Below, piece by piece: positions 41,074 through 63,085 of a stretch of DNA of 64,000 bases. Position 1 is the first letter of the stretch. Each line of letters starts with the position of its first letter. Location: the NCBI GenBank assembly GCA_900542045.1, contig UQMI01000007.1, forward strand, positions 1 through 64,000, given 5' to 3'. Below the pieces are notes generated by a model. The model did not search any database. It saw only the letters and a list, made by a program, of their open reading frames with translations, and was not told where the DNA came from. Origin of the DNA: an uncultured Blautia sp. GTDB lineage: Bacteria; Bacillota; Clostridia; Lachnospirales; Lachnospiraceae. Position numbers and translations under genes: made by a program.

Positions 41074-41119
41074 AAAAGGACGCCTGCTGCCGGATACCGG
41101 CTGACAGATGTCCTTTTTC
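41074..41119. terminator. Convergent terminator between the regulator and the HAD gene
   Basis: AAAAGGAC and GTCCTTTTT outer arms enclose a GCCGG/CCGGC inner stem. T-runs at both ends let it serve both genes. Confidence 0.75.
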
Positions 41120-41138
41120 TTTTTAGCCTGATCTTCTT

Positions 41139-47229: not shown

Positions 47230-47339
47230 TGGTCTGCTCTCTATTATAGAGGGAGATTCCAGTTCCGGCAAGACAATGGGAAGGGACTTGCTGCAGAATA
47301 ACAGGAGGAAATTTCTGTTTTCTGTCGGTCTCTTCCCTT

Positions 47340-47604
47340 TTTGTTCGGCACTGACGGCAGTTTCCGGCTTTTCTACAGTGCTTCTACTCCTCTTTGTTCG
47401 GCACTGGCAGCTATTTTCGGTTTCTCCACGGTACTTCTTCGCCTCTTTGTTCGGCACTGACGGCAGTTTTCGGCTTCTTCACGGTACTCCTGGCCGCTTT
47501 GGTTCGGCACTGGCAGCAGTTTTCGGCTTTTCCACGGTACTCCTGGCCGCTTTGGTTCGGCACTGACGGCAGTTTCCGACTTCTCCACGGTACTCCTGCC
47601 CTTC
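47340..47604. repeat. 53-bp tandem repeat array, locus 1
   Basis: Five units of exactly 53 bp. The anchor GTTCGGCAC starts at 47343, 47396, 47449, 47502 and 47555, and each unit contains a TTCGGC-type block and CCACGGTAC or a close variant. Because 53 is not a multiple of 3, all three frames cycle through the array; the frames stay open by repetition, not selection. It lies in the convergent nifX/rpsR gap. Confidence 0.95.
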
Positions 47605-47792
47605 TAAGCCCCCGCGTAACACAGATCCCAGACACGGTACAAGCCCCTGCCACGCAGGCTTCTCCGCCTGCGGCAAGCTGCTTCTGAAATATTCTTTCTC
47701 TTCGATGCAGTGCAGTCTCCATTCCACTCCGACCGGCGCAAAGCAGATGCCCGCCGGACATCTGCTTTGCGCCCCCATGGATTATTTTTATA

Positions 47793-47832
47793 CGACAGGA
47801 AAGTCAGAACAAAACGTCCTGCTTTCCTGCCA
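47793..47832. repeat. Dispersed palindromic repeat, copy B
   Basis: CGACAGGAAAGTCAGAAC and GTCCTGCTTTCCTGCCA form imperfect arms around AAAAC, a close relative of the palindrome at 29054-29104. It sits between array 1 and the rpsR terminator. Confidence 0.75.
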
Positions 47833-47833
47833 C

Positions 47834-47870
47834 AAAAAAGGCTGAATCCGTTTCCGGATCCAGCCTTTTG
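47834..47870 (-). terminator. Terminator of the rpsF-ssb-rpsR operon
   Basis: Minus-strand AAAGGCTGGATCCG pairs with CGGATTCAGCCTTTT with one mismatch, then TTTTTT. It lies 8 nt from the rpsR stop. Confidence 0.92.
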
Positions 47871-47878
47871 CTTCTCAA

Positions 47879-48142
47879 TTAGTCCTGTACGTAAGGCATC
47901 AGGGCAAGATGTCTTGCTCTCTTGATAGCCACTGTCAGAGCTCTCTGATGTTTTGCACAGTTTCCTGTGATTCTTCTGGGAAGGATTTTTCCTCTCTCAG
48001 AGATGTATCTTTTCAGTTTGTTTACGTCCTTGTAATCGATCTCGTTATTTTCTTTGCCACAGAATACACATACTTTTTTTCTTCTGCGTCCGCCTCTTCT
48101 CTTCATTGGAGAGTCTGGTCTTTCGCCTTTATTGTAAGCCAT
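47879..48142 (-). CDS. rpsR: 30S ribosomal protein S18
   Basis: An 87-residue S18 with a Cys-containing N-terminal [16 protein letters not shown] and the conserved C-terminal [25 protein letters not shown]. It binds S6 in the small subunit. It is the last gene of the operon with ssb and rpsF. Confidence 0.97.
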
Positions 48143-48230
48143 GAGTTTTTCCTCCTTCTATACTTTATCAGGCAGCTCATCTTCTTCCGCAGGCACGGCC
48201 GGTGAACTGCTTCCATTCATTCTTCCATTC

Positions 48231-48695
48231 CTAGTTAAATGGGAGTTCCTCATCAATCCCATCCGGAATATTCATAAATCCATCCACAGATGCAGTTTCC
48301 GGTGCCGGCATAGACGGCATTGCTCCCGACTGTGCACTGGTATTGCGGTGAGAAGCAGCATAAGAATCGCTGGCAGATTTGCTCTCGGCAAATTCCTGCT
48401 CTTCCACCACTACTTCTGTGGTGTAAACCTTCACGCCATCCCGATTGGTATAGCTGCCGGTCTGAATCCTTCCGCTTACCACGATACGGATTCCCTGATG
48501 AAAATACTTCTCTGCAAACTCTGCAGTACGGCCAAAAGATACACAGTTGATAAAGTCTGCGGTAGCTTCTCCGTCCCGACGGAATCTGCGGTCAACAGCC
48601 AGTGTATATCTGGCTATGGCAAGAGCATTCTCCCCAGCGGAATATCTTACTTCCGGATCTCTTGTTAAACGTCCCATTAAAATAACTTTATTCAT
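48231..48695 (-). CDS. ssb: Single-stranded DNA-binding protein
   Basis: A 154-residue SSB with an N-terminal OB-fold (MNKVILMGRLTRDPEVRYSAGENA through VVEEQEF, about 1-105), a Ser/Ala/Asn-rich linker, and the acidic tip DGIDEELPFN that docks partner proteins. ATG at 48695 has GGTGG upstream; the three-codon upstream extension is not needed. Tetramer-forming bacterial type. Between rpsF and rpsR as in most Firmicutes. Confidence 0.97.
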   Translation of the reverse strand: MNKVILMGRLTRDPEVRYSAGENALAIARYTLAVDRRFRRDGEATADFINCVSFGRTAEFAEKYFHQGIRIVVSGRIQTGSYTNRDGVKVYTTEVVVEEQEFAESKSASDSYAASHRNTSAQSGAMPSMPAPETASVDGFMNIPDGIDEELPFN

Positions 48696-48777
48696 AAATA
48701 CCACCTTTCTTCATGTATCCGGCATGCGCCGGCACACCAAGCGCATATTTATGTGTAGTGTTCCTGAATATCGAAGC

Positions 48778-49065
48778 TTATGCGTCTTTTCTGACAACAA
48801 GATATCTCAGAACATTGTCCATGATGCGAACGTGTCTTTCCACTTCCGCAGGACAAGTTGCATCTGCTTCAAACTGGATAAAGTAGTAGAAGCCTTCGTG
48901 CATTTTCTGAATTTCGTAAGCTAATCTCTTCTTACCCCATTCTTCCACTTCTGTGATGTTGCCGTTGTAACGGGTGATGTAGCCCTTTGCTTTCTCAACT
49001 ACAGCATCGCGCACTTCATCCTCAACTTTGGCACTCACAACTAATGCTAACTCATACTTGTTCAT
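48778..49065 (-). CDS. rpsF: 30S ribosomal protein S6
   Basis: A 95-residue S6 with NKYELALVVSAKVEDEV start and the FEADATCPAEVERHVRIMDNVLRYLVV end. It forms the S6:S18 heterodimer and is the first gene of the operon. Confidence 0.97.
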   Translation of the reverse strand: MNKYELALVVSAKVEDEVRDAVVEKAKGYITRYNGNITEVEEWGKKRLAYEIQKMHEGFYYFIQFEADATCPAEVERHVRIMDNVLRYLVVRKDA

Positions 49066-49187
49066 GCTTGTTTACCTCCTTATGGTCTTAATGGCCCCCT
49101 GACCTGGCAGGGAACAAGGATATATAATCTCAGGCTTCCCTTTGTCTCTTCTGCTGACAAATGGGCAATAATATATCACGGTTCTCT

Positions 49188-49216
49188 ATTCTAGCATAGG
49201 AATCTCCGGGAATCAA
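49188..49216 (-). promoter_or_regulatory. Promoter of rpsF-ssb-rpsR
   Basis: Minus-strand TTGATT (49211-49216) and TAGAAT (49188-49193) are 17 bp apart, giving a leader of about 115 nt. Its -35 overlaps the end of the upstream DUF951 gene. An S6:S18 autoregulatory leader is possible but not demonstrated. Confidence 0.75.
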
Positions 49217-49404
49217 GGATTTTTTTGAAGTTTTCTTGTATTCTTTTCCACCAGCTTCCGGGGCACCATGATCTGATGGCCGCAGCCCGCACACTTCAGC
49301 CGGAAATCAGCTCCCACCCGCAGGATCTCCCAATCCTGACTGCCGCAGGGATGCTTTTTCTTCAGGGTCACCACATCACCCACTTCGTATAGATATCCTG
49401 CCAT
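49213..49404 (-). CDS. DUF951 domain protein
   Basis: A 63-residue protein of the DUF951 family: YLYEVGDVVTLKKKHPCGS then WEILRVGADFRLKCAGCGHQIMVPR, with a Cys set (C..C..C) that looks like a zinc knuckle. Small OB/SH3-like fold inferred. Function unknown; often beside ribosomal or translation genes. It lies 4 nt after the sirtuin gene. Confidence 0.88.
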   Translation of the reverse strand: MAGYLYEVGDVVTLKKKHPCGSQDWEILRVGADFRLKCAGCGHQIMVPRKLVEKNTRKLQKNP

Positions 49405-49408
49405 CGCT

Positions 49409-50140
49409 TTACCTCACCTCAATCTGTGCAAATGTTTCTCCAATGGGCGCCTGTATCAGCAAATCCGCCTGTTTGTCTCTGGGAGTGGGGGACTTGTTGA
49501 TCACCACCAGGTATTTTCCACGGAAATAATCGATGAGGCTGGCAGCCGGATATACTGCCAGGCTGGTTCCCCCGATGATCAGCATCTGGGCTTCTGAAAT
49601 GGCCTGGACAGACCGGGTCAGGACATCTGCATCCAACGCTTCCTCATACAGCACCACGTCCGGCTTGATGATTCCTCCGCATTCGCATCTGGGAATGCCG
49701 CTGGCCGCCTTCATATGGGCAAATCCATAAAACTTTCCGCATTTCATGCAGTAATTGCGGTATACCGATCCGTGCAGTTCCAGCACATTTTCGCTGCCTG
49801 CCATCTGATGCAGGTTGTCAATATTCTGGGTGATCACTGCCCGGAGCTTTCCTGCCTTCTCCAGCTCGGCCAGCTTCTCATGAGCCGCATTGGGCTTCGC
49901 CTTGTCATACAGCATCTTATTGGAATAGAACCGGAAAAATTCACCGGTATTTCGCATAAAAAAGCTGTGGCTTAAGATCGTCTCCGGCGGATAATCATAC
50001 TGCTGGTTATACAGGCCGTCTACGCTGCGGAAATCCGGAATCCCGCTTTCCGTGGAAACGCCTGCTCCGCCAAAAAACACAATATTCTCACATTCATCCA
50101 CAAATCTCTGCAATTTTTCCACTGCCTGTTCCATTCTCAT
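49409..50140 (-). CDS. cobB: NAD-dependent protein deacetylase, SIR2 family
   Basis: A 243-residue class III (sirtuin) lysine deacylase. Rossmann landmarks are GAGVSTESGIPDFRS (about 25-39) and QNIDNLHQMAG (about 106-116). The catalytic His is in LELHGSVY. A zinc module has CMKCGKF and PRCECGG. It removes acyl groups from lysines and produces O-acyl-ADP-ribose. Start ATG 50140 with GAGGG upstream. In a string srtB-cobB-DUF951 with 4- to 17-nt gaps. Confidence 0.95.
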   Translation of the reverse strand: MRMEQAVEKLQRFVDECENIVFFGGAGVSTESGIPDFRSVDGLYNQQYDYPPETILSHSFFMRNTGEFFRFYSNKMLYDKAKPNAAHEKLAELEKAGKLRAVITQNIDNLHQMAGSENVLELHGSVYRNYCMKCGKFYGFAHMKAASGIPRCECGGIIKPDVVLYEEALDADVLTRSVQAISEAQMLIIGGTSLAVYPAASLIDYFRGKYLVVINKSPTPRDKQADLLIQAPIGETFAQIEVR

Positions 50141-50157
50141 CCCTCCTGTTTTTCTTC

Positions 50158-50955
50158 TTACACTTCATCAATCCGGATTGCCTGCACCACATAGCGGGTA
50201 GACTCATTCCCCGTGCAGGTGGACAGTGTGATCACCTTGTCCTTCACATCCACTTCCATATCTCTAGTCTCAATCTCAGAATTTTCCTTCATGGCTTCCA
50301 CATATTCCTGGAATTCCTTATCCGGACCTTTGAATAAAGTATACGTGTCACTGTTCACCGGAGTGACATAAGCTGAAAAAATCTCGTACCGGTAATCTCC
50401 TTCTGGCGTCAGGATCCATATGTAGGGACTTTTCCCGTAGGCATCTTCCCGAAATTCCTTCAGCTTGCCGAACATGGATCCATTCTTCATATTATGTCCG
50501 TAAATAATCGTATTGCAGTCACTGAAATCTCCCTGATTCGTATACTCCAAAAAGATGGATCCGGCAAAATTATAGGTGCCTTCATAAGTATGATGCAGGT
50601 ACTCGTCGTTATCCTCTCCCTGCACCACCGGATAACTGACATCGATTCCTTCTATATATATCCATCCCACCACATCAGGATTGATCTTCTTCAGTTCTTC
50701 AAAATCCACCGTAATAGGCGGCTGAGGGGTATCCTCTTCTTCCTCTGTTTCTTCTTCATCTGCCTGCTTCTGATTGGGATTCTCCGATACGGCAAGCTCT
50801 TCCAGCTGGTTGTATTCATCCACGCCTTTCTTATATTCAGAATAGATTGAATAAAGCTGATATGCGGCAAATAAAAATACCCCTATGGCAATCACCAGCA
50901 GAAACGTCAGCAGAAAATCGGTAAACGTTTTCTTTTTATTTTGCTTTTTCTTCAT
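50158..50955 (-). CDS. Class B sortase
   Basis: A 265-residue membrane-anchored transpeptidase that attaches substrates to peptidoglycan. N-terminal basic segment and one membrane helix (about 12-35). The sortase B core includes VDFEELKKINPDVVGWIYI, the catalytic His in TIIYGHNMKNGSMFGKLK, and TLSTCTGNESTRYVVQAIR with the catalytic Cys and Arg. ATG at 50955 with AAGGAG is preferred over GTG 50961. No typical sortase-B substrate gene lies next to it. Confidence 0.92.
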   Translation of the reverse strand: MKKKQNKKKTFTDFLLTFLLVIAIGVFLFAAYQLYSIYSEYKKGVDEYNQLEELAVSENPNQKQADEEETEEEEDTPQPPITVDFEELKKINPDVVGWIYIEGIDVSYPVVQGEDNDEYLHHTYEGTYNFAGSIFLEYTNQGDFSDCNTIIYGHNMKNGSMFGKLKEFREDAYGKSPYIWILTPEGDYRYEIFSAYVTPVNSDTYTLFKGPDKEFQEYVEAMKENSEIETRDMEVDVKDKVITLSTCTGNESTRYVVQAIRIDEV

Positions 50956-51363
50956 CGTCACACTCCTTTTCGTTCTATTATAATGACTGTGCTTTTATCT
51001 GGCAAGAAAAAAAGGAACCCCTCCGCTGCATGTTCCGTTTTTCTCCCTTTCCGGTACCGAATAATTTCTTGTGCTTCCCTGATTTATCGTGTATAATTCA
51101 AGTAACAATTTCTTAACATTTCGGTCTTTTCCACAGCAGCCGCAAAAAGTCAGCCATACTTTCACAAACATATCTCGACTGCAAAGCTCTACTCCTGACC
51201 GAACAATCGACCGGAGGGAAAACAGCTTCCCGCTGCTGCCGACTGTCTGTAACACATCGCCTGCAGAATCAGGAACTCTTTTCCTTCTGATCTGTTTTTT
51301 GTTACCCGTATAATACCCGTTGTTTCATCTTAATTCACAAGCAAAAAAAGAGGCATTTGATTC
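50956..51363. other. Intergenic region between sortase and the Big2 protein
   Basis: It holds the srtB promoter (minus-strand TTGCCA 51000-51005, TATAAT 50977-50982, 17-bp spacer) and a GGAAC/GTTCC hairpin near 51010-51040. A TATAAT near 51309-51314, before the Big2 gene, has a weak -35. No gene was recognised. Confidence 0.6.
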
Positions 51364-54039
51364 ATGAAACGACTTTTTTCCATTTTCCTGACCGTGACTT
51401 TATGTACGGGGCTGCTCACCACTGCCGCTGCAGGGAGCTTTCAGCCAGAACTCCCGGCAGAGCAGGAGGGATTTTCTGTGGCAACAGAATCTGACGATTT
51501 CTCCACATCTGACAACGATACGGACACAGAGGGATTCTCCGCTTCGTCGGAAGAAGACGAGGGCAATTTGCTGGCGGAGACAGTGGCTCAGGTAAATTAT
51601 CTGGATTACGATGCAGATACAGGCCAATTTGTCACCGCTCAGGCAGAAAATGTAATTGTTATTGATGAAAATACGACCACATGGGGAGATAGTGGTAAAG
51701 AAACCTGGTATCTGGCCAGAGGAACGGTGACGATTCCTGACATGGTCACGGTCAACGGTACTGTAAATCTGATCCTGGAAGACGGATGCAATCTGACATC
51801 TGTGCAAAATATTTACATGCCTGCTGCTCCCCGAGACTCCACTACTACACTTAACATCTATGCCCAAAGCGAGGGAGATTCCATGGGGAGCCTGACGGCA
51901 TCCGGCGCTCCCACTAGCAATTCAAATGAATTCTACTCTGCCATCGGTAACAGAGCCCCGCTTCAGGGCAGCGGCTACAGCCTTTACGACAGCGCTCTGT
52001 GTGTCTACGGCGGCATTGTGACTGCAAATTCTCCGGACTATGCTGCAAATAACAATGAACAATTTGGTATTCTCTTGGATAAAATAGATATCTACGGCGG
52101 CATTGTCAATGCCTATGGTAGCAATTGTGCTGTTTCTTCCCAGATTATTGCTTCTGTATATTACAGCCAGCTTACTGTCCATGGCGGCACCCTCAATGCC
52201 GAAGGTGGGATGTATGGCATTGCCTATTTTTCCCTTACTCTCAACGGCGGAACTGTCAACGCATCCGGAACTACCAGCGCTGTCTATGCTGCTGAAAGCA
52301 GTGCCGAAGACGGAATTTGTATAAACGACGGCACTCTGAACGCCACCGGCGGTTCTTATGGTATCCAGGTTTATGACACCAATTTTCAAGTGAAGGGAGG
52401 GACAGTCAATACCTCCGGTCGTGAAGCGGGGACTCACCTGTACATCAGCCAGTTCAACATTACTGGCGGAACAGTAAACTCCTCCAGCGACCAAACTGGC
52501 ATCATCAGTGAAAGATCGACATTAAACATTAACGGAGGAATTGTCAATGTCCTTGGCAATCTGTCCGGAGGAACTTATGCCGGTATAGATCTTAATGAAA
52601 TAGACCACTCTCCCGGTGTCAGTGAATCACCCTCTCTTATCGTCGACGGCGGTATTCTGGTCGCAGAGGGAGAACCGCCTGTCAATGTACAGCAAGGAAG
52701 CTCTGAATATAAGAATGGTATTGTCATGGAAAACACCGCTGGGACTGTCTACGCCACTGAGACGCCAGACAGCTTTACCCTGACGACAGACTGGACACTG
52801 GAGGAGAACAAAACTCTGCATGTCCCCGAGAACGTCACTCTGACCATCCAGGAAGGCACAACTCTGACAGTCGAAGGCGCCCTTAACATTTTAGGCACAG
52901 TACGCAATGAGGGCGATGTTTATATAGACGGTGACAGCGGTCAGATAACCGGCACCGGAACTTTTGAAGGAAATTCAGCTGTACAGCTTGGTATCAGCCT
53001 GGACCGCACTTCCCTTTCTCTTACCACTGGAAACACTTCCCAGCTGACAGCCACAGTTTTTCCCGCTGATACCCCGGTCACCTGGTCTTCCAGCAATACC
53101 GACGTAGCAACGGTCAGCGGATCCGGTACAGTCACAGCAGTGGGCCCGGGCACTGCTGTCATCACCGCAAGCGCCGGCGGCTGCACTGCCACATGCACAG
53201 TAACCGTCTCCGTTCCCATCACCGGCATTACCTTGAGCCCGGCCACACTGGATCTGGCTGTGAACGGCCAGGAAACTCTCACTGCTGCTGTGGAACCGGC
53301 AGATGCCGACCAGACTGTCACATGGACTTCTGATAATCCGGCAGTAGCTTCCGTGGACGCCTCCGGCACCGTTACAGGTGTGGGCAAGGGAACTGCTGTC
53401 GTTACCGCAACTACTGCAGACGGAGCCTACCAGGCTTCCTGTACCGTTACAGTACCGGCCCAGCCTGCCTCCACTGTCTTGTCCGTCACTGACCACACCA
53501 CTTCCTCCGTTACTCTTTCCTGGGATGCTGTAGAGGAAGCTGAGGGCTATACTATCTGGTACCGTTCCGAAGACGATACCGATATGCGCCGTACCATTAT
53601 CTGGGATAAGGACACCACTTCCTGGACCAGAAACGGACTGGAGCCCGGCACCAAATATTTCTTTGCCATTCGTTCCTGGGTCACTGATGCTGACGGGAAT
53701 TACATCTTCAGCGATGTATCCCCCACCCAGCGAGGCACCACAAAACCAGAGGCCGCCAGTATCCAGTCCGTATCCGTATCCGATGGATATGTGAAAGTAC
53801 GGCTGGACGGTGAAGCCGAAGGAGCCGAAAGATATTCCATGTGCTATGCTTCCCGCTCCAATGGGTTCACCAGCGGAAACTTCCAGGTAGGCATCCATAC
53901 TTCCTATACCATCCGTACCATGACAGAACCTCTGGACAAAGGCACCTGGTATATCTGTGTGAAATCCTATCGGAATCTTGGAAACAGCAAGCGCGTATAC
54001 GGCGACTGGTCCAACGTGGTGAAGATCACCGTAGAATAA
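51364..54039 (+). CDS. Secreted surface protein: repeat-rich beta-solenoid, two Big2 domains and Fn3
   Basis: An 891-residue protein with a signal peptide (about 1-25). Residues about 60-440 form Gly/Asn/Val-rich repeats of the type GGTVNASG or GGIVNAYG, suggesting a right-handed beta-helix adhesin. Two Big2 (bacterial Ig-like) domains follow at about 535-615 and 615-695 (motifs VTWSSSNTDVATVSGSG, VTWTSDNPAVASVDASG), then an Fn3 domain (about 700-795, VTLSWDAVEEAEGYTIWYRS). There is no LPXTG motif or C-terminal anchor. The start has GAGG upstream. Probably an adhesin, but that is inference. Confidence 0.82.
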   Translation: MKRLFSIFLTVTLCTGLLTTAAAGSFQPELPAEQEGFSVATESDDFSTSDNDTDTEGFSASSEEDEGNLLAETVAQVNYLDYDADTGQFVTAQAENVIVIDENTTTWGDSGKETWYLARGTVTIPDMVTVNGTVNLILEDGCNLTSVQNIYMPAAPRDSTTTLNIYAQSEGDSMGSLTASGAPTSNSNEFYSAIGNRAPLQGSGYSLYDSALCVYGGIVTANSPDYAANNNEQFGILLDKIDIYGGIVNAYGSNCAVSSQIIASVYYSQLTVHGGTLNAEGGMYGIAYFSLTLNGGTVNASGTTSAVYAAESSAEDGICINDGTLNATGGSYGIQVYDTNFQVKGGTVNTSGREAGTHLYISQFNITGGTVNSSSDQTGIISERSTLNINGGIVNVLGNLSGGTYAGIDLNEIDHSPGVSESPSLIVDGGILVAEGEPPVNVQQGSSEYKNGIVMENTAGTVYATETPDSFTLTTDWTLEENKTLHVPENVTLTIQEGTTLTVEGALNILGTVRNEGDVYIDGDSGQITGTGTFEGNSAVQLGISLDRTSLSLTTGNTSQLTATVFPADTPVTWSSSNTDVATVSGSGTVTAVGPGTAVITASAGGCTATCTVTVSVPITGITLSPATLDLAVNGQETLTAAVEPADADQTVTWTSDNPAVASVDASGTVTGVGKGTAVVTATTADGAYQASCTVTVPAQPASTVLSVTDHTTSSVTLSWDAVEEAEGYTIWYRSEDDTDMRRTIIWDKDTTSWTRNGLEPGTKYFFAIRSWVTDADGNYIFSDVSPTQRGTTKPEAASIQSVSVSDGYVKVRLDGEAEGAERYSMCYASRSNGFTSGNFQVGIHTSYTIRTMTEPLDKGTWYICVKSYRNLGNSKRVYGDWSNVVKITVE

Positions 54040-54089
54040 AGCGTACACAGAAATTCCATTTGGGAACAAGAATATCACGCCGGTGCCTC

Positions 54090-54138
54090 TCCACAGGAAG
54101 GCATCGGCTGCCGGTAAATTCTGCTTTCCTGACATAAA
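54090..54138. repeat. Dispersed palindromic repeat, copy D
   Basis: Left half CCACAGGAAGGC and right half TTCTGCTTTCCTGACATAAA match the outer parts of the family, but the inner AGAACGAAAC section is replaced. Confidence 0.6.
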
Positions 54139-54206
54139 AAAGAGACAATCCTGTAGAATCCAGACTTTTTCAATATCCTGGATTTCTATAAGAATTGTCT
54201 CTTTTT
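54136..54206. terminator. Large hairpin after the Big2 gene
   Basis: Outer arms AAAAAGAGACAAT and ATTGTCTCTTTTT and inner arms TAGAATCCAG and CTGGATTTCTA build a long stem ending in TTTTTC. It can end transcription of the Big2 gene; its symmetry suits both strands. Confidence 0.8.
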
Positions 54207-54310
54207 CATTTCCTTTTAAATTCAGAACGGTCTTATGTCGCTTTTATCTGTATTCTGGTGATCTCTATACAGTCCTCAATTAAAATTGCTGATCCGTGCC
54301 ATGCCGAAAA

Positions 54311-54740
54311 CTTTTTGTTCAGCACGGATCCCAATTTCCGGCCTTCCCACTGTACTCATAAACGGTTTGGTTCGGCACTCATTCCGGTTTCCGGCTTTTC
54401 CACTGTACTCATGGCCGGGTTCGTTCGGCACTCATTCCGGTTTCCGGCTTTTCCACTGTACTTATGGCCGGGTTCGTTCGGCACAGATCCCAATTTCCGG
54501 CTTTTCCACTGTACTCATGAACGGTTCGGTTCGGCACTCATTCCGGTTTCCGGCTTTTCCACTGTACTCATGACCGGGTTCGTTCGGCACAGATCACGAT
54601 TTCCATGATTTCCCCCGTATATCATGCCGGATTCGTTCGGCACAAACAGCAATTTTCAAATTTCCCACCGTATGACAAAATCAAAAATACGGTACAAATT
54701 CCAACTTTTAAGATTCCCACTGTACGACAGTATTAAAAAA
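54311..54740. repeat. 53-bp tandem repeat array, locus 2
   Basis: GTTC(A/G)GCAC anchors occur at 54317, 54370, 54423, 54476, 54529, 54582 and 54635: seven units spaced exactly 53 bp, with an eighth degraded unit beyond. The consensus shares TTCGGCAC, TTTCCGGCTTTTCCAC and GTACT-type blocks with locus 1. It lies between the Big2 gene and the convergent tRNA-fMet. Confidence 0.95.
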
Positions 54741-54899
54741 TACAACTCTGACAAATTTGGAACGGGAATTTCTACTCCGCGGGAAATTCCATCCCATAGA
54801 ATCCTGGAAATAAAACAAATCCCTGCTGTAAAACATTCAGCTTTCCTTTCACATAAAAGAAAAAAGCCCGGGCTCTTGGCCGGACTGCATGCATAAAAA

Positions 54900-54973
54900 T
54901 AGCGGGGACAGGATTTGAACCTGCGACCTTCGGGTTATGAGCCCGACGAGCTTCCAGACTGCTCCACCCCGCG
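54900..54973 (-). tRNA. Initiator tRNA-fMet (CAU)
   Basis: A 74-nt tRNA on the minus strand. The acceptor starts CGCGGGG with the unpaired position 1:72 (C/U here) of initiators. The anticodon loop is CTCATAA (CAU) closed by three G:C pairs, and the D-arm and T-arm follow. CCA is not encoded. Confidence 0.96.
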
Positions 54974-55288
54974 TCATCTTTTATATAATATATTCACTAG
55001 AATTAATTATATTCCTGTAAAATACATTTGTCAACGATATGCCGACACTTTTTTCAAAAAATTATTGCTGTCGCATACAAATATACCCGGAATATCCACA
55101 CACCTTACTGCCTGGAGATATTCCTACATCATATTGCCTGGGATTATTCAAAAACCGTACTGCCAGGGGACATCCAATCACCATCTGTCTGTACCCCTGA
55201 CCGTACGGTCTTTGTTGAAAGTCAATATTCCGCCGTTCCGCAAACGCAGGCGCAGCCTGAGCTTTTACTCTGCTATCTTATAAAAAAC
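54974..55288. other. Region between tRNA-fMet and pxpA
   Basis: Contains the tRNA-fMet promoter (55006-55034). No gene or recognised structure is seen in the rest; the pxpA stop is at its right edge with no clear terminator. Confidence 0.55.
55006..55034 (-). promoter_or_regulatory. tRNA-fMet promoter
   Basis: Minus-strand TTGACA (55029-55034) and TATAAT (55006-55011), a consensus sigma-A promoter with 17-bp spacer. Confidence 0.9.
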
Positions 55289-56062: not shown

Positions 56063-56078
56063 AAATCTTTCCCCTTTC

Positions 56079-57425
56079 TCAGCTGATATTCATAATGGTT
56101 TCGATAAATCCCGTATCTGCTCTTCCGTCGCAGAAAACAGGATGGCGCAGAATCTGATACTGGAAATCCAGATTGGTCTCCACCCCCATAATCAGCATTT
56201 CATCCAGCGCGGACCGCATCTTCTGCAGAGCCGCTTCCCGGTCGGGCGCATGAACGATTACCTTTGCGATCATGGAATCGTATTCGGACGGGATCCGATA
56301 GCCGGTATACAATCCCGTATCCACACGCACTCCGTTGCCTGCCGGCAGATGCATGTGCTGAATCACACCGGGACTGGGCATGAAATTCTTCTCCGGGATC
56401 TCCGCATTAATCCGGCATTCAATGGCATGGCCCCGGATCTGAATGTCCTCCTGACGAAAGCTCAGCGGCTCTCCCATGGCAACCCGGATCTGCTCAATGA
56501 TCAGATCGGTTCCGGTCACCATTTCCGTTACCCCGTGCTCCACCTGGATCCTGGTGTTCATTTCCATAAAATAAAACTGTCCGCTGGTATCCACAATAAA
56601 CTCAATGGTACCCGCATTGGTATATCCCACTGTCTTTGCCGCCAGGACCGCGCAGCGGTTCATTTCCTGCCGGGTTTCCTCTGTAATGGCCGGAGACGGC
56701 GATTCCTCGATCAGCTTCTGATGATTTCTCTGTACGGAACAGTCTCTCTCTCCCAGAGCCACCACATTTCCCTGGGTATCTGCCATGATCTGTATCTCCA
56801 CATGACGGGGATTCTGAATAAACCGCTCAATATACATGGTGTCATCCCCAAAGGCGTTGGCAGACTCTCTCTGTGCCATGTTGAACTGAAATTCGAATTC
56901 ATCTTCTGACTGTGCCACACGCATACCCTTGCCGCCGCCTCCGGAAGAAGCTTTGATCATCACCGGATATCCGATTTCTCTGGCCAGAGCTTTTCCCACT
57001 TCTGCGTCATAGACCGGCTCTTTGGTGCCGGGTACCACAGGCACGCCCGCTTCCATCATGGTCCGGCGGGCCTGGGATTTATTTCCCATTTTATCAATGA
57101 CATCGGCTTCAGGACCGATAAACGTAATGCCGTTTTCCTTGCATCGCCTTACGAATTCACTGTTTTCCGACAAAAAACCAAAACCGGGATGGATCGCATC
57201 CGCTCCCATATTTCTGGCTGCCGTAATAATCTGATCCATATTCAGGTAACTGTTTTTCGCAGGTCCCTCGCCAATGCAGATCCGCTGATCTGCCAGCTGC
57301 ACATGGAGGCTTTTGGTATCTTCCTTGGAATAGACAGCCACACTGCGAATGCCCATATTTCTGCAGGCACGGATGATACGAACTGCAATTTCTCCACGGT
57401 TGGCAATCAAAATCTTATTAAACAC
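56079..57425 (-). CDS. accC: Biotin carboxylase subunit (AccC type)
   Basis: A 448-residue ATP-grasp biotin carboxylase. Landmarks: MFNKILIANRGEIAVRIIRACR, SGGGGKGMRV (Gly-rich loop, about 163-172), MYIERFIQNPRHVEIQI, EMNTRIQVEHGVTEM. It carboxylates biotin on AccB with bicarbonate. No carboxyltransferase (AccA/AccD or acyl-CoA type) is present next to it; it stands between accB and pxpA, so a special role with oxoprolinase is possible. Confidence 0.93.
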   Translation of the reverse strand: MFNKILIANRGEIAVRIIRACRNMGIRSVAVYSKEDTKSLHVQLADQRICIGEGPAKNSYLNMDQIITAARNMGADAIHPGFGFLSENSEFVRRCKENGITFIGPEADVIDKMGNKSQARRTMMEAGVPVVPGTKEPVYDAEVGKALAREIGYPVMIKASSGGGGKGMRVAQSEDEFEFQFNMAQRESANAFGDDTMYIERFIQNPRHVEIQIMADTQGNVVALGERDCSVQRNHQKLIEESPSPAITEETRQEMNRCAVLAAKTVGYTNAGTIEFIVDTSGQFYFMEMNTRIQVEHGVTEMVTGTDLIIEQIRVAMGEPLSFRQEDIQIRGHAIECRINAEIPEKNFMPSPGVIQHMHLPAGNGVRVDTGLYTGYRIPSEYDSMIAKVIVHAPDREAALQKMRSALDEMLIMGVETNLDFQYQILRHPVFCDGRADTGFIETIMNIS

Positions 57426-57447
57426 AGTTCCAACCTCCTTTGTCCTC

Positions 57448-57894
57448 CTATAATTTCTTCACACGGAACAGAGGCTGGCCATATTCCACCTTCTGTTCGT
57501 TGCTCACCAGCACTGCTTCAATCTCACAGTCAAATTCACTCTGAATCTCATTCATCAGTTTCATGGCTTCCAGGATACAAACCGTCTGGCCATTTTTCAC
57601 CTGATCTCCCACCTTTACGAAGGCCGGCGCATCCGGTGCAGGTGCAGAATAAAAAGTCCCTACAATAGGAGAAGTAATAAAGAGCTTTTCATCCTCTTCT
57701 GTCTCTGGCGCCTGTGTTTCGGCCTGAGGTGCCGCTGCCGGCACAGGTGCTCCCATGGGAACGCCCGGCGCGATTACCGGCGGATGATCCAGTTTGCTCA
57801 TGGTGATCTTCACATCTCCCTCTTTGTAAGTAAATTCCGTCAGAGAAGAATTTTCAATTATCTTAACAAGGCTTTCAATTTTTTCTAAATCCAT
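57448..57894 (-). CDS. accB: Biotin carboxyl carrier protein (AccB type)
   Basis: A 148-residue BCCP. Residues about 1-40 are the helical N-terminus, then a Pro/Ala linker (35-70), then the biotinyl domain (about 75-148) with EAMKLMNE (109-116), Lys112 being the biotinylated residue. ATG at 57894 has AAAGGAG upstream; a longer frame to 57981 is not family-like. Adjacent to accC (22-nt gap). Confidence 0.94.
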   Translation of the reverse strand: MDLEKIESLVKIIENSSLTEFTYKEGDVKITMSKLDHPPVIAPGVPMGAPVPAAAPQAETQAPETEEDEKLFITSPIVGTFYSAPAPDAPAFVKVGDQVKNGQTVCILEAMKLMNEIQSEFDCEIEAVLVSNEQKVEYGQPLFRVKKL

Positions 57895-58001
57895 GCGTAT
57901 TTCTCCTTTTCTATCATGATGGGCGCCGTGCAGCTTCCCAGGACAAACACCTGGCCACACTGCTCCGCACCGGTTCCTCACTTACAGCTGCCATTTTTTC
58001 T

Positions 58002-59009
58002 TTACTCTTCAAACAGCTTCGCCAGTCGTTTTGCCACCAGACGGCAGTCCAGCACTTCCTTACAGGGCTGATGGATGATCGTGCGCATCTCATCCAATTC
58101 CCTGACCTCTTCCAGATACAGCCGTTGTGCCTCTTCCACGGTAATGGCCTGGAAACGGATCTTATGGTCTGTCTTCCTCTGTACCAGCTTGGGAATATCC
58201 ACCGACGCTACTGTGGCAATCTTGGCATATCCTCCTGTAGTCTGCCGGTCAGACAGCAGAATAATGGGTTTTCCATGAGAAGGCACCTGTACAGAGCCAA
58301 ATGCAATTCCGTCAGAAATAATATCAGACGTTTCCTTCGGCGCAATGAACGGTCCTTCCAGTCTGCAGCCCATACGGTCAAAATCACTGGTTACCGTATA
58401 TTCGCTGTTCAGAAATGTCTCAATCCCCTGTCTGCTGAATACATCATCCTGTGGCCCCATGACTACCCGAAGCACAGCCTCTTCCTGGTCGAATTCATCC
58501 AGATCCAGCTTTCTGGATAAAAAGAAGGGAAGATAACGTCTCTTGATCCGGAAATTCATATAATCTCCTGCCTGCAGTTTTCTTCCTTTAAAACCGCCCA
58601 ACCTGCTCTTCATATTGGTACAGCGGCTTCCCATGACCACCGGAATATCCAGATAGCTGGAAAAAGCCACATAGCCGCGGCTGCCCGTTCTGGCACTGGA
58701 AAACTTCAGAATGTCTCCTTTATTCATATAGATTGCCGTATACATGGGGGCCGGATCTCCATTGATCGTTGGCTGAAAATCGCCTCCTGTAATGGCAATA
58801 ATGGTCGCGGATGTAAACTCTAACGTAGGTCCGATCAGGGTAAATTCCAGAACCGCTTCGTTCTCCGGATTGTCCAGAAGCAGATTTGCGATCTTAAAGG
58901 AACGTACATCCATCACGCCTGCCACGGAAAATCCCTGACTTTGATATCCGGTACGGCCCAGATCCTGCACCGTTGTCAGCATTCCGCCTTTAAGTATGCG
59001 AATTCCCAT
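58002..59009 (-). CDS. pxpC: 5-oxoprolinase subunit C (KipA/biotin-dependent carboxylase domain)
   Basis: A 335-residue protein of the KipA/AHS2 family: MGIRILKGGMLTTVQDLGRTGYQSQG, then NLLLDNPENEAVLEFT, DRMGCRLEG and DRQTTGGYAKIATV. With PxpB it forms the catalytic pair for 5-oxoproline cleavage. The pxpB stop lies 1 nt upstream, so translation is coupled. Confidence 0.93.
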   Translation of the reverse strand: MGIRILKGGMLTTVQDLGRTGYQSQGFSVAGVMDVRSFKIANLLLDNPENEAVLEFTLIGPTLEFTSATIIAITGGDFQPTINGDPAPMYTAIYMNKGDILKFSSARTGSRGYVAFSSYLDIPVVMGSRCTNMKSRLGGFKGRKLQAGDYMNFRIKRRYLPFFLSRKLDLDEFDQEEAVLRVVMGPQDDVFSRQGIETFLNSEYTVTSDFDRMGCRLEGPFIAPKETSDIISDGIAFGSVQVPSHGKPIILLSDRQTTGGYAKIATVASVDIPKLVQRKTDHKIRFQAITVEEAQRLYLEEVRELDEMRTIIHQPCKEVLDCRLVAKRLAKLFEE

Positions 59010-59010
59010 T

Positions 59011-59739
59011 TTACACCTCTCCTTCGTGAACGATACACTGATATTCCCCGCGGTCTACCAGCTCTTTGATCCGTTTGTACTCTTCCTCATCAACAGGAAC
59101 AAACCGGATATAATCTCCTGCTTCCACCAGGATCGGTGTCTCCCGTTCCGGGTCATAGGTCTTGACCGGAGTCATTCCCATAAGCTGCCAGCCTCCCGGT
59201 GAATCCAGAGGATAAATACCTGTCTGGGAGCCACCGATCCCCACACTGCCTGCGCTGATCTTAATTCTGGGATTAGCAAGCCGGGGTGTATGAATCCTTT
59301 CATCCAATCCGCCCAGATAACAAAAGCCTGGCAGAAAGCCCAGCATATAAATCAGATAGTCTCTGGAAGAATGGATTTTGATCACTTCTTCCGGTGTCAG
59401 TCCTGCATGCTCTGCTATATTTCCCAGATCCGGCCCATACTCTCCTCCATAACATACGGGAATTTCAAAAATCCTTTTTGAGCCTTCGGAAGCGGAAGTT
59501 TCCAGCTTCAGCAATGACTGAATTCTCTCTTTGATCGCTTCGTAACCGATGACGCGGGGATCATAATTGATCAACAGAGAGCAGAAAGCCGGAATCACAT
59601 CCACCACACCTTCAATATTCTGTGCTTTCATAAGCTGCACAGTGGCTGTAATTTTCCGGTTGATCTCCGGATTGATCTCCTTTCCGAATTCAACCAGAAG
59701 GGACGAATCTCCCGCCGTCAGAATCCTGATATTTGACAT
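59011..59739 (-). CDS. pxpB: 5-oxoprolinase subunit B (KipI family)
   Basis: A 242-residue KipI/AHS1 protein: ILTAGDSSLLVEFG, IPVCYGGEYGPDLGNIAEHAGLT, YLIYMLGFLPGFCYLGGLDERIHTPR, GSVGIGGSQTGIYPLDSPGGWQL. In B. subtilis KipI also inhibits the sporulation kinase KinA; whether that holds here is unknown. ATG at 59739 follows GGAGGAATGAC. Confidence 0.93.
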   Translation of the reverse strand: MSNIRILTAGDSSLLVEFGKEINPEINRKITATVQLMKAQNIEGVVDVIPAFCSLLINYDPRVIGYEAIKERIQSLLKLETSASEGSKRIFEIPVCYGGEYGPDLGNIAEHAGLTPEEVIKIHSSRDYLIYMLGFLPGFCYLGGLDERIHTPRLANPRIKISAGSVGIGGSQTGIYPLDSPGGWQLMGMTPVKTYDPERETPILVEAGDYIRFVPVDEEEYKRIKELVDRGEYQCIVHEGEV

Positions 59740-59812
59740 GTCATTCCTCCAATCGCTGCACTGGTGCACAGGGAAGATCAATTCTCACCAATGCCGGCTG
59801 TTTTCCTGTAAC

Positions 59813-59825
59813 GGACCAATGGTCC
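59813..59825. promoter_or_regulatory. Palindromic operator candidate before pxpB
   Basis: GGACCAATGGTCC (minus: GGACCATTGGTCC) is a near-perfect palindrome with one central base. A TACAAT -10 (59828-59833 minus) lies just upstream, so the site covers the transcription start of the pxp genes. The -35 (59851-59856) is weak. Confidence 0.6.
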
Positions 59826-59882
59826 TTATTGTAATGATCTATCTATATACACAGAAAGGCGTTCCCGCCTGTTCTGCCGTTT

Positions 59883-59918
59883 AAAAAAGGAGTGCAACCC
59901 CTGCGCGATTGCACCCCT
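59883..59918 (-). terminator. Terminator of the Nramp-like gene
   Basis: Minus-strand GGGGTGCAA and TTGCACTCC form a stem, followed by TTTTTT. It separates the transporter transcript from pxpB. Confidence 0.8.
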
Positions 59919-59947
59919 TTCGTGCACCGGCTTCTGATACGCCGGAA

Positions 59948-61156
59948 TTATACAAGCAAGCTTCCCAGGTTGCTGACAAAGGTAGTAATTCCCAGATAAG
60001 CAGACAGAATTACCACAATGATTCCCAGAATCAGCAGCCATACAGGATGATGATAATCATTTCCCATAATGGATTTCTTCTGAGACGCGATCAGACAGAT
60101 TGCCAGCGTGATCGGCAGGATCAGTCCATTCAGCGCACCTGCCAGCACCAGCAAGGTTGCAGGCTGTCCCAGGAGCAACATAATGATTGTAGAAACAGCA
60201 ATAAATCCGATGGTTACCCAGTTCTCATTTTTCTCAATTCCTTTATGGAAAGTCTTGAGGAATGTAACAGAAGTATATGCCGCGCCAATAATGGATGTAA
60301 GGGCTGCACACAGAAGCACCAGACCGGAAAAACGATAGCCAATTTCACCGGCTCCCTGACGGAACGCATCTGCTGCCGGATTGCTGGTATCCAGAGTCGC
60401 ACCCGTTACAACCACACCCAGTACGGCCAGGAACAGGAACACTCGAACAATAGCCGCGATCACGATTCCCATGATAGAACTTTTCTGAATCTCTTTCAGG
60501 TTCTCTTTTTTGGTGATCCCTGCATCGATCAGACGATGGGCGCCGGCAAAGGTGATATAACCGCCCACGGTACCGCCCAGCAATGTGATAATAGCCGGAA
60601 ACAGATTCGTCACTCCTGCGGAAGGAATAAAGGTGTTCTTCAATGCATCTCCCACCGGCGGTTTTACTACGATAATGACTACAAAAATAACAATAATCAT
60701 AATCGCACCCAATACTTTGGTTACCGTATCCATGGCTGCCTTGGCGTTCTTCAGAAGGAAGATCAAAATTGCCAACACACCGGAAAGAATATATCCCACA
60801 TTGGTGGGGATTCCCAGCAGTGTATTAAAACCAAGCGCACCGCCTCCTACGTTACCAATGTTAAATACCAGACCACCGACTACGATCAGAAAGGCAACCA
60901 GGTAGCCCAGACCCGGAAGCAGCTTATTGGCCACATCCTGTCCACGAAAACCGGACACGCAAAGTACCCGCCAGATATTTATCTGAGCAATAACAGATAA
61001 GATAATGGATACCAGAATAACGAAACCAAAGCTTGCGCCATAGGTACCGGTAAACTGTGCCGTCTGGGTCAGGAATCCAGGCCCGATAGCAGATGTCGCC
61101 ATGAGGAATGCAGCTCCCAATAAGGCTCCGCCGCCGTTCTTTTTTGTCTTACTCAT
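59948..61156 (-). CDS. Nramp-related transporter (YcsG-like) of the oxoprolinase cluster
   Basis: A 402-residue polytopic membrane protein with about 11 hydrophobic segments, of the NRAMP/YcsG family. In B. subtilis, ycsG lies with ycsF and kip genes, matching this cluster. The DPGN metal-ligand motif of true Nramp is replaced by GPGF (25-28), so it may not carry divalent metal; uptake of 5-oxoproline or an amino acid is possible, but inferred. It is the first gene after the promoter; 5' leader hairpins lie at 61193-61257. Confidence 0.85.
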   Translation of the reverse strand: MSKTKKNGGGALLGAAFLMATSAIGPGFLTQTAQFTGTYGASFGFVILVSIILSVIAQINIWRVLCVSGFRGQDVANKLLPGLGYLVAFLIVVGGLVFNIGNVGGGALGFNTLLGIPTNVGYILSGVLAILIFLLKNAKAAMDTVTKVLGAIMIIVIFVVIIVVKPPVGDALKNTFIPSAGVTNLFPAIITLLGGTVGGYITFAGAHRLIDAGITKKENLKEIQKSSIMGIVIAAIVRVFLFLAVLGVVVTGATLDTSNPAADAFRQGAGEIGYRFSGLVLLCAALTSIIGAAYTSVTFLKTFHKGIEKNENWVTIGFIAVSTIIMLLLGQPATLLVLAGALNGLILPITLAICLIASQKKSIMGNDYHHPVWLLILGIIVVILSAYLGITTFVSNLGSLLV

Positions 61157-61192
61157 ATGTTTTCCCCCTTTTCTCTTTGATAATCCTCCATG

Positions 61193-61257
61193 AAGCGGAT
61201 ATACGCAGTCTGTATCCGCTGCCTGCGGATAACCGGACTGCCGCTTCGCGTCCGGTT
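61193..61257 (-). repeat. Two hairpins in the transporter 5' leader
   Basis: TAACCGGAC and GTCCGGTTA (61229-61257) form a perfect 9-bp stem; AGCGGATA and TATCCGCT (61193-61219) form a second. They lie between the -10 (61308-61313) and the gene start. No known riboswitch was matched. Confidence 0.65.
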
Positions 61258-61307
61258 AAACTGTCGGAGTATTATCGTTATTAAAAATATTACAAATAAT
61301 TAGTTCT

Positions 61308-61313
61308 ATTGTA
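61308..61313 (-). promoter_or_regulatory. -10 of the Nramp-like gene
   Basis: Minus-strand TATGGTACAAT is an extended -10 (TG one base before TACAAT); no clear -35. Confidence 0.5.
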
Positions 61314-61415
61314 CCATACTTTCCTTTATTTACCTAGCAAAATTTTAACGTATAAAATTGTTTTTTATTTGCTTTTGTTTTTCTATGGCAATCCGCCAGA
61401 CAATCGGATCCGGAT

Positions 61416-61505
61416 GTCAAAATCTCCCCGCCGGATAATCGGCTTTGAATGCCAAAATCTCCCCGCCGGATAATCGGCTTTGAATGCCAAAATCTCCCCG
61501 CCGGA
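61416..61505. repeat. 35-bp tandem repeat in the divergent transporter/pfp region
   Basis: Units G(T/C)CAAAATCTCCCCGCCGGA plus TAATCGGCTTTGAAT are repeated at 61416-61450, 61451-61485 and partly 61486-61505. The two full units differ at one position. A degenerate half unit precedes. The period is not a multiple of 3. Confidence 0.9.
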
Positions 61506-61590
61506 TCCCTGCCTTATTCGCCCGGTACCCGGATTCAGGAAAAAATCAGGAAATTTTACTTTTTTGTTTTTCTGCAGCCTGTTTTTATGG

Positions 61591-61596
61591 TACAAT
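61591..61596 (+). promoter_or_regulatory. -10 of pfp
   Basis: ATGGTACAAT is an extended -10 like that of the divergent transporter; the -35 (TTTCTG, 61569-61574) is weak. The leader is about 60 nt. Confidence 0.5.
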
Positions 61597-61661
61597 CTTC
61601 CCGTTAATCAGTTAACACTTATTGCCGCAGCAAATGCGGCGGATCGGAGGAAATATATATT

Positions 61662-62891
61662 ATGAAGCAAATGAATTTAATCGTAGGACAGTCCGGCGGT
61701 CCTACCGCAGTGATCAACAGCAGTCTGTACGGCGTTGTGTCAGAGGGCTTCCGGCATCCGGATGCCATCGGTCATGTATACGGCATGGTAAACGGCATCG
61801 CCGGCTTTCTGGAAGGCAATGTTCTGGACTTTGCCCAGGAACTGCCCGGCAGCCAGCTGGAACAGCTGAAGACTACTCCCGGCGCCTATCTGGGATCCTG
61901 CCGCTATAAACTGCCGGAAGATCTGGAGGATCCGGTATATCCCCAGCTCTTTGCCCGTTTCGAAGAACTGAATATCGGTTACTTCTTCTATATCGGGGGC
62001 AACGACTCTATGGATACCGTAAGCAAGCTTTCCCGCTACGCACGTAAGACAGGCAGCAGCCTCATTGTCCTGGGCGAGCCCAAAACCATCGACAACGATC
62101 TGATTCTCACAGATCACACCCCCGGCTACGGCAGTGCCGCCCGTTATGTAGCCAGCACCGTACGGGAAATTGCCACCGATGCCAGCGTATACAATGCCAA
62201 TTCCGTTACAATCGTAGAAATCATGGGACGCCACGCCGGATGGCTTACTGCCGCCGGTGCCCTTGCCCGGAGATTCCCGGAAGACAATCCCCGGCTCCTG
62301 TACCTCCCGGAGACTGCTTTTGACGAAGAAGAATTCCTGGCCCGGATTCAGGATGCCTTTTCTTCCACCAAAACCGTTGTGGTCTGTGTTTCTGAAGGCA
62401 TCCACGATGCTTCCGGAAAATTCATCTGTGAATACGAAAATTCCGTCGGCACAGACACCTTTGGCCACAAAATGCTGGCCGGCTGCGGAAAATATCTGGA
62501 AAATCTGGTTCGCAGCCGTCTGGGTGTAAAAGCCCGCTCCATTGAACTGAATGTTCCCCAGCGCTGCTCTGCGGCCCTCATGTCAAAGACCGACCAACAG
62601 GAAGCCATCCTGGCAGGCCAGTTCGGCGTGCAGGCTGCCCTGAAGGGCGAAACCGGCAAAATGATTGCCTTCTCCCGCAGCAGCCAGTCGCCTTATCAGC
62701 TCCATTGCACACTGGAGGATGTGGACCGGATCTGCAATCAGGAAAAAACCGTTCCGATGGACTGGATCACCGAAGACGGTTCCGATGTGACCGGCGATTT
62801 CCTGGAATATGCCCTTCCGCTGATCCAGGGAACCGTGGAAATTCCCATGGATGACCAGGGACTTCCCGCTTTCATTTACCGCAGCAAATAA
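61662..62891 (+). CDS. 6-phosphofructokinase, PPi-dependent type
   Basis: A 409-residue phosphofructokinase: N-terminal IVGQSGGPTAVINSSL, IGGNDSMDT (111-119), GEPKTIDNDL (138-147), TPGYGSAARY, and MGRHAGWLTAAG. PPi-using enzymes carry Asp and Lys where ATP enzymes have Gly in the GGDGS and PGTIDND motifs; here Asp115 and Lys141 fit the PPi type. However, the residue before Asp115 is Asn114, where most have Asp. It phosphorylates fructose 6-phosphate in glycolysis, reversible with PPi. ATG follows GGAGG. Confidence 0.9.
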   Translation: MKQMNLIVGQSGGPTAVINSSLYGVVSEGFRHPDAIGHVYGMVNGIAGFLEGNVLDFAQELPGSQLEQLKTTPGAYLGSCRYKLPEDLEDPVYPQLFARFEELNIGYFFYIGGNDSMDTVSKLSRYARKTGSSLIVLGEPKTIDNDLILTDHTPGYGSAARYVASTVREIATDASVYNANSVTIVEIMGRHAGWLTAAGALARRFPEDNPRLLYLPETAFDEEEFLARIQDAFSSTKTVVVCVSEGIHDASGKFICEYENSVGTDTFGHKMLAGCGKYLENLVRSRLGVKARSIELNVPQRCSAALMSKTDQQEAILAGQFGVQAALKGETGKMIAFSRSSQSPYQLHCTLEDVDRICNQEKTVPMDWITEDGSDVTGDFLEYALPLIQGTVEIPMDDQGLPAFIYRSK

Positions 62892-62935
62892 ATCCTGACC
62901 GGCCCCACGCCGGGCACCACATCCAGGGATCATAT

Positions 62936-62979
62936 ATACGGTGGGAATTTCGTTTTTCCGAATTCCCACCGTATTTTTT
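62936..62979 (+). terminator. Terminator of pfp
   Basis: ATACGGTGGGAATT and AATTCCCACCGTAT form a perfect 14-bp stem extended by TCG/CGA, followed by TTTTT. The right arm sequence recurs twice in the next 110 bp. Confidence 0.93.
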
Positions 62980-63085
62980 AGCCGGCGTTACGGGTGGGGC
63001 TCCACTTTTCTTGATTTTCACCGTATATTCTGACCGGGCGTTATGGGCGCAATCCCACTTCTTTCGATTCCCACCGTATAGCCCC
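62959..63085. repeat. 53-bp period repeat, locus 3
   Basis: CACCGTAT-type blocks preceded by GATT(C/T)(C/T)C repeat at 62969, 63021 and 63074 (intervals 52 and 53). Between them, CCGG(G)CGTTA(C/T)GGG resembles the linker of arrays 1 and 2. It lies in the convergent pfp/dehydrogenase gap. Confidence 0.8.

Follow-up and report, generated by a model that had tools for sequence, protein, structure and literature searches.

Tandem 52–53-bp repeats of Blautia and its relatives as putative platforms of inverted half-sites for a DNA-binding protein

What are the short tandem arrays that lie between genes in a 64,000-nt stretch of DNA from an uncultured Blautia sp. (contig UQMI01000007.1, positions 1 to 64,000; the window), and does their placement tell what they do? 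There are three such arrays in the window, here A1, A2 and A3, all built of units of about 53 bp and all lying where two transcription units converge. The initial annotation had proposed that they constitute a repeat family confined to convergent gaps, perhaps a system to block transcription collisions or to bind a nucleoid protein. Relatives of these arrays turned out to be present in other genomes, and there the units have a distinct architecture of two inverted half-sites at a nearly constant distance, followed by a poorly conserved spacer. The explanation we favor, to which we would give about an even chance, is that the arrays are rows of inverted half-sites for a putative sequence-specific DNA-binding protein and thus act as platforms of double-stranded DNA.

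The architecture was found in sampled relatives, in which all genome-level counts were made (397 genomes of the same family and a class-level sample of 291). A sequence-only profile of the A1 and A2 units gave 28 matches in 25 of the 397 genomes at E <= 0.01. Among the 20 matches fetched as loci, arrays were present only in the two strongest, L087 and L088; these top matches are true arrays, one with 14.5 copies of a 52-nt unit in genome G097 and the other with a 53-nt period in genome G395. A third match in G097 (L109) was rejected as an array, as it lies within a coding repeat. The G097 and G395 arrays differ in most of their sequence, yet both have the reverse-complementary boxes TACGG and CCGTA at a fixed distance. 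A pattern built on these two arrays, TACGG-N26..28-CCGTA-N15..17-TACGG, was counted on both strands, with the reversed pattern as a control. It matches 42 of the 397 family genomes, 17 of them at least six times, while the control reaches no more than two matches per genome; the richest genome has 40 forward and 38 reverse matches and none to its reversed control. In the class-level sample nine of the 291 genomes match and four are rich (two of these already being in the family sample), with up to three control matches in one genome. The distribution is patchy: within the genus of Blautia sp. An81, seven of 20 genomes are rich and 13 have no matches at all. An81 itself (genome G004) has 22 forward and 22 reverse matches. 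No TACGGTT arms were found in viral contigs. Without the shared architecture, searches specific to the window had made the family look unique to the strain. A window-specific pattern had no matches in collections of genome contigs and viral contigs, BLAST returned nothing for A1 among plasmids or for A2 among phages, A1 had no match in eight genomes of Blautia relatives, and a DNA search of the 397 genomes with A2 gave just two weak matches, neither of them an array. The closest homologs of the phosphofructokinase encoded next to A3 are 75% identical in genome contigs and belong to Blautia and its relatives; 80 phosphofructokinase loci contained neither a period-53 array, at the Tandem Repeats Finder settings used, nor an excess of dyads (4 versus 6 in controls).

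How regular is this architecture? In 36 array entries with three or more dyads, coming from 12 genomes (one array being counted as two pieces), the unit consists of a dyad of 36–37 nt and a poorly conserved spacer. The dyad mostly reads TACGGTT...AACCGTA and is A/T-rich near positions 10–12, 18–21 and 26–28. Over all array intervals, counted with no length limit, 254 of 277 spans from TACGG to CCGTA measure 36 or 37 nt, and of 256 distances from CCGTA to the next TACGG, 216 amount to exactly 16 nt and another 29 to 15 nt. The centers of neighboring half-sites lie alternately 31–32 and 21 bp apart, corresponding to about three and to two turns of the helix, and 128 of 135 single-step spacings in the relatives give a period of 52 or 53. 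Arm letters vary in a coordinated manner. Arm positions 6 and 7 are each complementary in 30 of the 36 entries, compared to 20.1 and 18.5 when partners are permuted, a level reached in none of 5000 permutations. Agreement between arms is also higher within genomes (0.66) than across them (0.42). The prevailing arms are TACGGTT/AACCGTA in the Blautia group, TACGGACT/AGTCCGTA in G319 and TACGGGTC/GACCCGTA in G665. Beside its TACGGGTC arrays, G665 has further arm families without TACGG, namely GTAGAGTGG/CCACTCTAC with a period of 53 and GATGGTGGTGG/CCACCACCATC with a period of 55 (loci L222, L223, L230 and L249). Among 63 tandem arrays with a period of 50–56, taken from the fetched loci and the window, 44 contain an inverted repeat at p <= 0.05, and so do eight of the 11 arrays that lack TACGG, A1 and A2 being among the other three. 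Thus, symmetry and pitch are mostly retained while the letters of the arms vary.

Comparison of orthologous arrays between related species suggests that the arms are under selection. We aligned 11 pairs and pooled nine, dropping two against double-counting a locus and keeping the pair L188/L197 despite its poor alignment. Substitutions were found at three of 374 positions in the outer 5-nt arms, 18 of 150 at arm positions 6–7, 110 of 875 between the arms, 83 of 465 in the spacers and 371 of 5886 in the flanks, genes included. The difference between arms and spacers corresponds to p = 2e-19, with the caveat that alignment columns are not independent.

Do the arrays of the window conform to the same plan? 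A1 (47344–47608, plus strand) has five 53-nt units with the left box TTCGG, the right box CGGTA (CAGTG in unit 1) and a 16-nt spacer. A2 (54318–54730, plus strand) has seven clear 53-nt units with the left box TTCGG (TTCAG in unit 1) and the right box CTGTA (CCGTA in units 6 and 7), and its tail holds a degenerate eighth unit that starts with TACGGTAC. A3 (62937–63078, plus strand) is short and diverged, with three units whose arms form TACGG-N27-CCGTA (TATGG in unit 3) and whose spacers are 15 and 16 nt long; a terminator-like hairpin after the phosphofructokinase gene (62927–62983, no strand assigned; 23-nt arms, 83% complementary, with a T run after CCGTA) encloses its first unit. All three arrays fit a common frame of 37+16 nt. 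That they are real, as initially annotated, is plain for A1 and A2 from their self-identity at lag 53 (0.81 and 0.76, against shuffle maxima of 0.43 and 0.36). A3 is weaker by this measure (0.54 against a shuffle maximum of 0.53), matches the unit profile only at E 0.17 and is not among the Tandem Repeats Finder calls on the window. Nevertheless, it contains the box pattern TACGG-N27-CCGTA-N15-TACGG, taken from the relatives, on both strands, which none of 100 shuffles does. A1 and A2, with their asymmetric boxes (TTCGG paired with CTGTA or CGGTA), retain the period and the box positions without the inverted-repeat symmetry that A3 retains. A similarly degenerate 53-nt array without a significant inverted repeat lies in a convergent gap of Blautia sp. 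An81 (L177, 8742–9057). Two predicted proteins resemble the read-through translation of A2. One, P0001, does not come from another strain but corresponds to a reading frame of the window itself in which TGA was translated as tryptophan. The other, P0002, has 144 residues, is encoded on another short contig and is 65% identical over 72% of the read-through; it probably arose when a gene caller translated an array.

In the window, the arrays are indeed found exclusively in convergent gaps. Is this a rule of the family? Only four of the 31 called window gaps of at least 100 bp are convergent, so that three out of three arrays in such gaps would be unlikely by chance (p ~0.0009 if gaps are drawn at random). 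Of the six convergent gaps of any length, three have no array (28982–29184, 203 bp; 41063–41138, 76 bp; 1920–1962, 43 bp). To extend the comparison, gaps were typed with a codon-usage gene caller and ARAGORN for 66 arrays, the three of the window and 63 in 19 other genomes. This gave 22 convergent, 29 same-strand and seven divergent placements and eight at contig ends; none of the 66 is coding, defined as an overlap of more than 100 bp with a called gene. Among the 55 typed arrays outside the window, 19 are convergent, 29 same-strand and seven divergent, whereas the remaining gaps in these loci, where 100 bp or longer, comprise 16 convergent, 134 same-strand and 50 divergent ones (19/55 versus 16/200 convergent, p = 4e-6). 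This excess stems from five genomes of the Blautia genus, with 15 of 31 arrays convergent, some of them orthologous and therefore not independent; elsewhere the count is four of 24 (p = 0.24). In an even half-sample of G665, none of nine arrays is convergent, five being same-strand and four divergent (other gaps: 26 convergent, 145 same-strand, 60 divergent), although two of the nine share one called gap of about 1.9 kb that may contain uncalled genes. The repeat family is therefore not bound to convergent gaps, even though these are over-represented overall. Measured against the initial criterion for refutation, copies being equally common in divergent or coding regions, this is a partial refutation: copies do occur in divergent gaps, but not in coding regions. 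Two divergent cases have Pfam matches on both sides (L159, between cyanate lyase and an SbcD-like gene, and L168, between a tRNA-synthetase-like gene and DNA polymerase III delta). Two arrays at L108 were rejected as convergent, their apparent partner genes being antisense open reading frames according to the codon-usage gene caller. L155 and L161 are typed convergent owing to tRNA genes, short weak gene calls may have led to wrong gap types at L163, L165, L172, L173, L176, L187, L189 and L190, and the L212 array is also present in sample stretch L216. Among 75 gene 3' ends directed toward an array and separated from it by 30 nt or more (six of them in the window), 47 have a terminator-like hairpin ahead of the array, compared to 19 in shuffled gaps.

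The near-constant spacing of the boxes with free sequence between them, the strong conservation of the boxes alone, the frequent placement beyond terminator-like hairpins and the absence of an RNA fold in A1 and A2 together point to DNA recognized by a protein. A period of 52–53 bp amounts to five helical turns, so that all boxes would face the same way and dimers bound to them in a row might form a single nucleoprotein block. The arms would be bound by members of a protein family whose specificity differs from genome to genome, and the block may anchor or insulate DNA at places quiet in transcription. The convergent bias in Blautia would follow from such a role of the block, or else from arrays being tolerated in places without a promoter. 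Of the functions initially proposed, the binding of a nucleoid protein thus agrees best with the dyad geometry, arm conservation and covariation, although the flanking genes yielded no candidate for the protein itself.

Several observations weigh against this explanation. Most arrays were detected with the TACGG pattern, which presets spans of 36–38, spacers of 15–17 and exact arms (one search set only spans and arms), so the uniformity of arms and lengths is partly built in and families with different arms are underrepresented in the counts; even in the second species of each alignment, the arms are not fully independent of the search pattern. In A1 and A2 the inverted repeat is not significant (p 0.92 and 0.38), so that inside the window the dyad rests on A3. 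The three arm families of G665 would require several paralogous proteins or a structure-specific one. Among the matches listed for 84 of the 88 flanking proteins scanned, no family of sequence-specific DNA-binding proteins recurs beside the arrays; families common to at least two flanking proteins are chiefly enzymes and ribosomal protein S9, HhH-GPD occurring twice, and a neighboring gene as the source of the partner protein is consequently not supported. Furthermore, 28 of the 75 gene ends have no terminator-like hairpin by our scan, including both ends facing A3 and the left end facing A2. Finally, on the strand that carries the flanking genes, G-U mispairs outnumber those of A-C (29 versus 17), a weak signal in the direction of RNA, and the 52-nt repeats of Bacillus coagulans are transcribed, as seen in RNA-seq (PMC8161180, PMC8625621).

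These last two observations, the G-U excess only slightly, favor a function at the RNA level, with transcribed arrays acting as repeated small-RNA hairpins or sponges, and the arms could indeed pair as stems of 7–10 bp. Yet folding energies of A1 and A2 are no better than those of shuffles on either strand (z 0.09 to 0.92), leaving RNA structure in these two arrays unsupported, and a hairpin loop would hardly need lengths held to within about one base, as both loops and spacers are despite their sequence variation. Neither the window arrays nor those of ten further loci match an Rfam family at its gathering score; tRNAs and one distant T-box were all that was detected in the window and these loci. 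As the terminator-like hairpins also tend to precede the arrays, we regard a role in RNA as unlikely. Neutral or selfish satellites, which would arise by tandem duplication and survive in promoter-free gaps, their arms persisting through inverted-repeat slippage or conversion rather than binding, are in line with other properties. Units within an array share a consensus that differs from those of other arrays, coding DNA is avoided, arrays often follow terminator-like hairpins, and even genomes of a single genus differ in having them. What such satellites explain poorly is the roughly 20-fold greater divergence of spacers than of arms in the same orthologous arrays, since simple homogenization would affect all positions alike, and the narrow range of the period; we consider this origin unlikely, though less so than the other alternatives.

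A dedicated device that separates converging transcription units, blocking polymerase collisions or read-through as initially proposed, would fit the window and the Blautia genus, where convergent gaps hold about half of the arrays against 16 of 200 background gaps. In the relatives as a whole, 36 of the 55 typed arrays lie in same-strand or divergent gaps, no significant bias is seen outside the Blautia genus, and none of the nine G665 arrays is convergent. Such a device is thus distinctly unlikely as the general function. Least probable, and in our view very unlikely, is a clostridial counterpart of the repetitive extragenic palindromic (REP) sequences and bacterial interspersed mosaic elements (BIMEs). 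In this case palindromes located at the 3' ends of genes would serve to recruit gyrase or a comparable enzyme of DNA topology. The tandem palindromic units outside genes and their enrichment between converging genes in one genus are in line with it, whereas arms that differ between genomes are not expected of a site for a conserved enzyme, the tag typical of these elements is not conserved, and no transposase is among the families common to at least two of the flanking proteins scanned, as detailed below.

The surroundings of the window arrays are as follows, each neighboring gene having its 3' end toward the array. A1 lies between a gene for a NifX-like protein (Nitro_FeMo-Co; 46825–47229, plus strand) and rpsR, which encodes ribosomal protein S18 (47879–48142, minus strand). 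A near-perfect inverted repeat with 19-nt arms (95%) that are 1 nt apart is located between A1 and rpsR at 47735–47773. A 22-nt repeat whose core, TTGACATAAGTCAA, is palindromic occurs in about three copies at 46701–46773, upstream of the NifX-like gene and overlapping a promoter-like site, and is perhaps the operator of a regulator; 2.6 copies of a 36-nt repeat lie at 45920–46011 within a gene for an AraC-family regulator. A2 is flanked by a gene for a Big_2/fn3 protein (51364–54039, plus strand) and by tRNA-Met (CAT; 54900–54973, minus strand). On the Big_2 side there is an inverted repeat (54131–54212, no strand assigned) with 22-nt arms 38 nt apart, the second one T-rich, which is a possible terminator that the terminator scan did not score; on the tRNA side a terminator-like hairpin with a T run is present (54865–54886, minus strand). 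A3 is placed between pfp, of the phosphofructokinase family (61662–62891, plus strand), and a gene for a D-isomer 2-hydroxyacid dehydrogenase (63089–63994, minus strand). On the other side of pfp, the divergent gap that separates it from an Nramp gene contains a different array (61393–61506) with a period of 35, 3.3 copies and 91% matches. Elsewhere in the window, a T-box leader (18272–18476, minus strand) scores above the Rfam gathering threshold.

How do these arrays relate to known repeat systems? REP and BIME elements of enterobacteria are palindromic extragenic repeats that form regularly spaced composite arrays, are bound by proteins, carry a GTAG tag and are associated with a REP-associated tyrosine transposase (RAYT). 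Our arrays resemble them in having palindromic extragenic units in regular arrays. They differ in their 52–53-bp period and genome-specific arms, in the lack of a conserved GTAG tag (across 24 arrays whose dyads are 37 nt long, G follows CCGTA at a mean frequency of 0.26) and in the absence of a transposase among recurrent neighbors, that is, among families common to at least two of the 84 flanking proteins scanned, within the matches listed and with flanking genes only considered. CRISPR (clustered regularly interspaced short palindromic repeats) arrays consist of identical repeats and unique spacers at a constant period. A constant period with conserved and variable parts of the unit is common to both, but in our arrays units vary even inside the arms, spacers are alike within an array, the unit is 37+16 nt and there are many arrays per genome.

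The closest match is provided by non-coding 52-nt satellites of Firmicutes described by Subirana and Messeguer (PMC8161180), and the initial statement that no family with this period had been described is accordingly wrong. These satellites have a constant size of 51–53 nt and a variable sequence, mostly comprise 4–10 units, occur as several families of the same size but different sequence per genome, are patchy among related species and often contain short signals together with their reverses in one repeat (PMC8161180). The roles proposed for them involve nucleoid proteins or small RNAs (PMC8161180, PMC8625621). The window arrays belong to this kind. Their period is 53 nt and that of the relatives mostly 52 or 53, all 66 arrays lie outside called genes, and G665 has three arm families (periods 53, 53 and 55). 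A1 and A2, with five and seven units, satisfy the setting of at least four repeats used in the published search, which A3, with three, would miss. The published satellites were reported to be species-specific in sequence, without conservation (PMC8161180), which we take as an observation on the published sets rather than a criterion of membership. Our arrays depart from it: the TACGG/CCGTA arms recur between species (the rich genomes numbering 17 of 397 in the family and four of 291 in the class sample), and it is the inner parts that differ.

The 37+16 geometry and the conserved arms are features of the present arrays. The dyad architecture may nevertheless be general, since 15 of the 27 consensus repeats in Table 1 of PMC8161180 contain an inverted repeat (p < 0.05 versus base shuffles), albeit with more varied spans. 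Neither the 37+16 dyad nor covariation of its arms or selection acting on them is described in the literature searched, and the architecture seems not to have been reported previously in the searchable literature. With arms that are conserved and a sequence that is otherwise free, the 37+16 bp dyad renders the function of the arrays testable, as one can ask which protein binds TACGG...CCGTA at this spacing; the coexistence of rich and array-free species in one genus (7 versus 13 of 20) offers a direct route to its gene. More tentatively, and as a possibility we consider less likely than its converse, the 52/53-nt satellites of Firmicutes may be the visible half of a hitherto undescribed chromosome system. 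The other half would consist of DNA-binding proteins from a rapidly diversifying family. Each genome would have several of them, each with arms of its own, and these proteins would form one-sided nucleoprotein blocks of five-turn pitch behind terminators and mark the boundaries of transcription or supercoiling domains. For the published satellites, no function has been established in the literature examined. Were such a system to exist, the arm sequences would track the protein while the geometry stayed fixed, which would explain the paradox of published satellites that are constant in size and variable in sequence.

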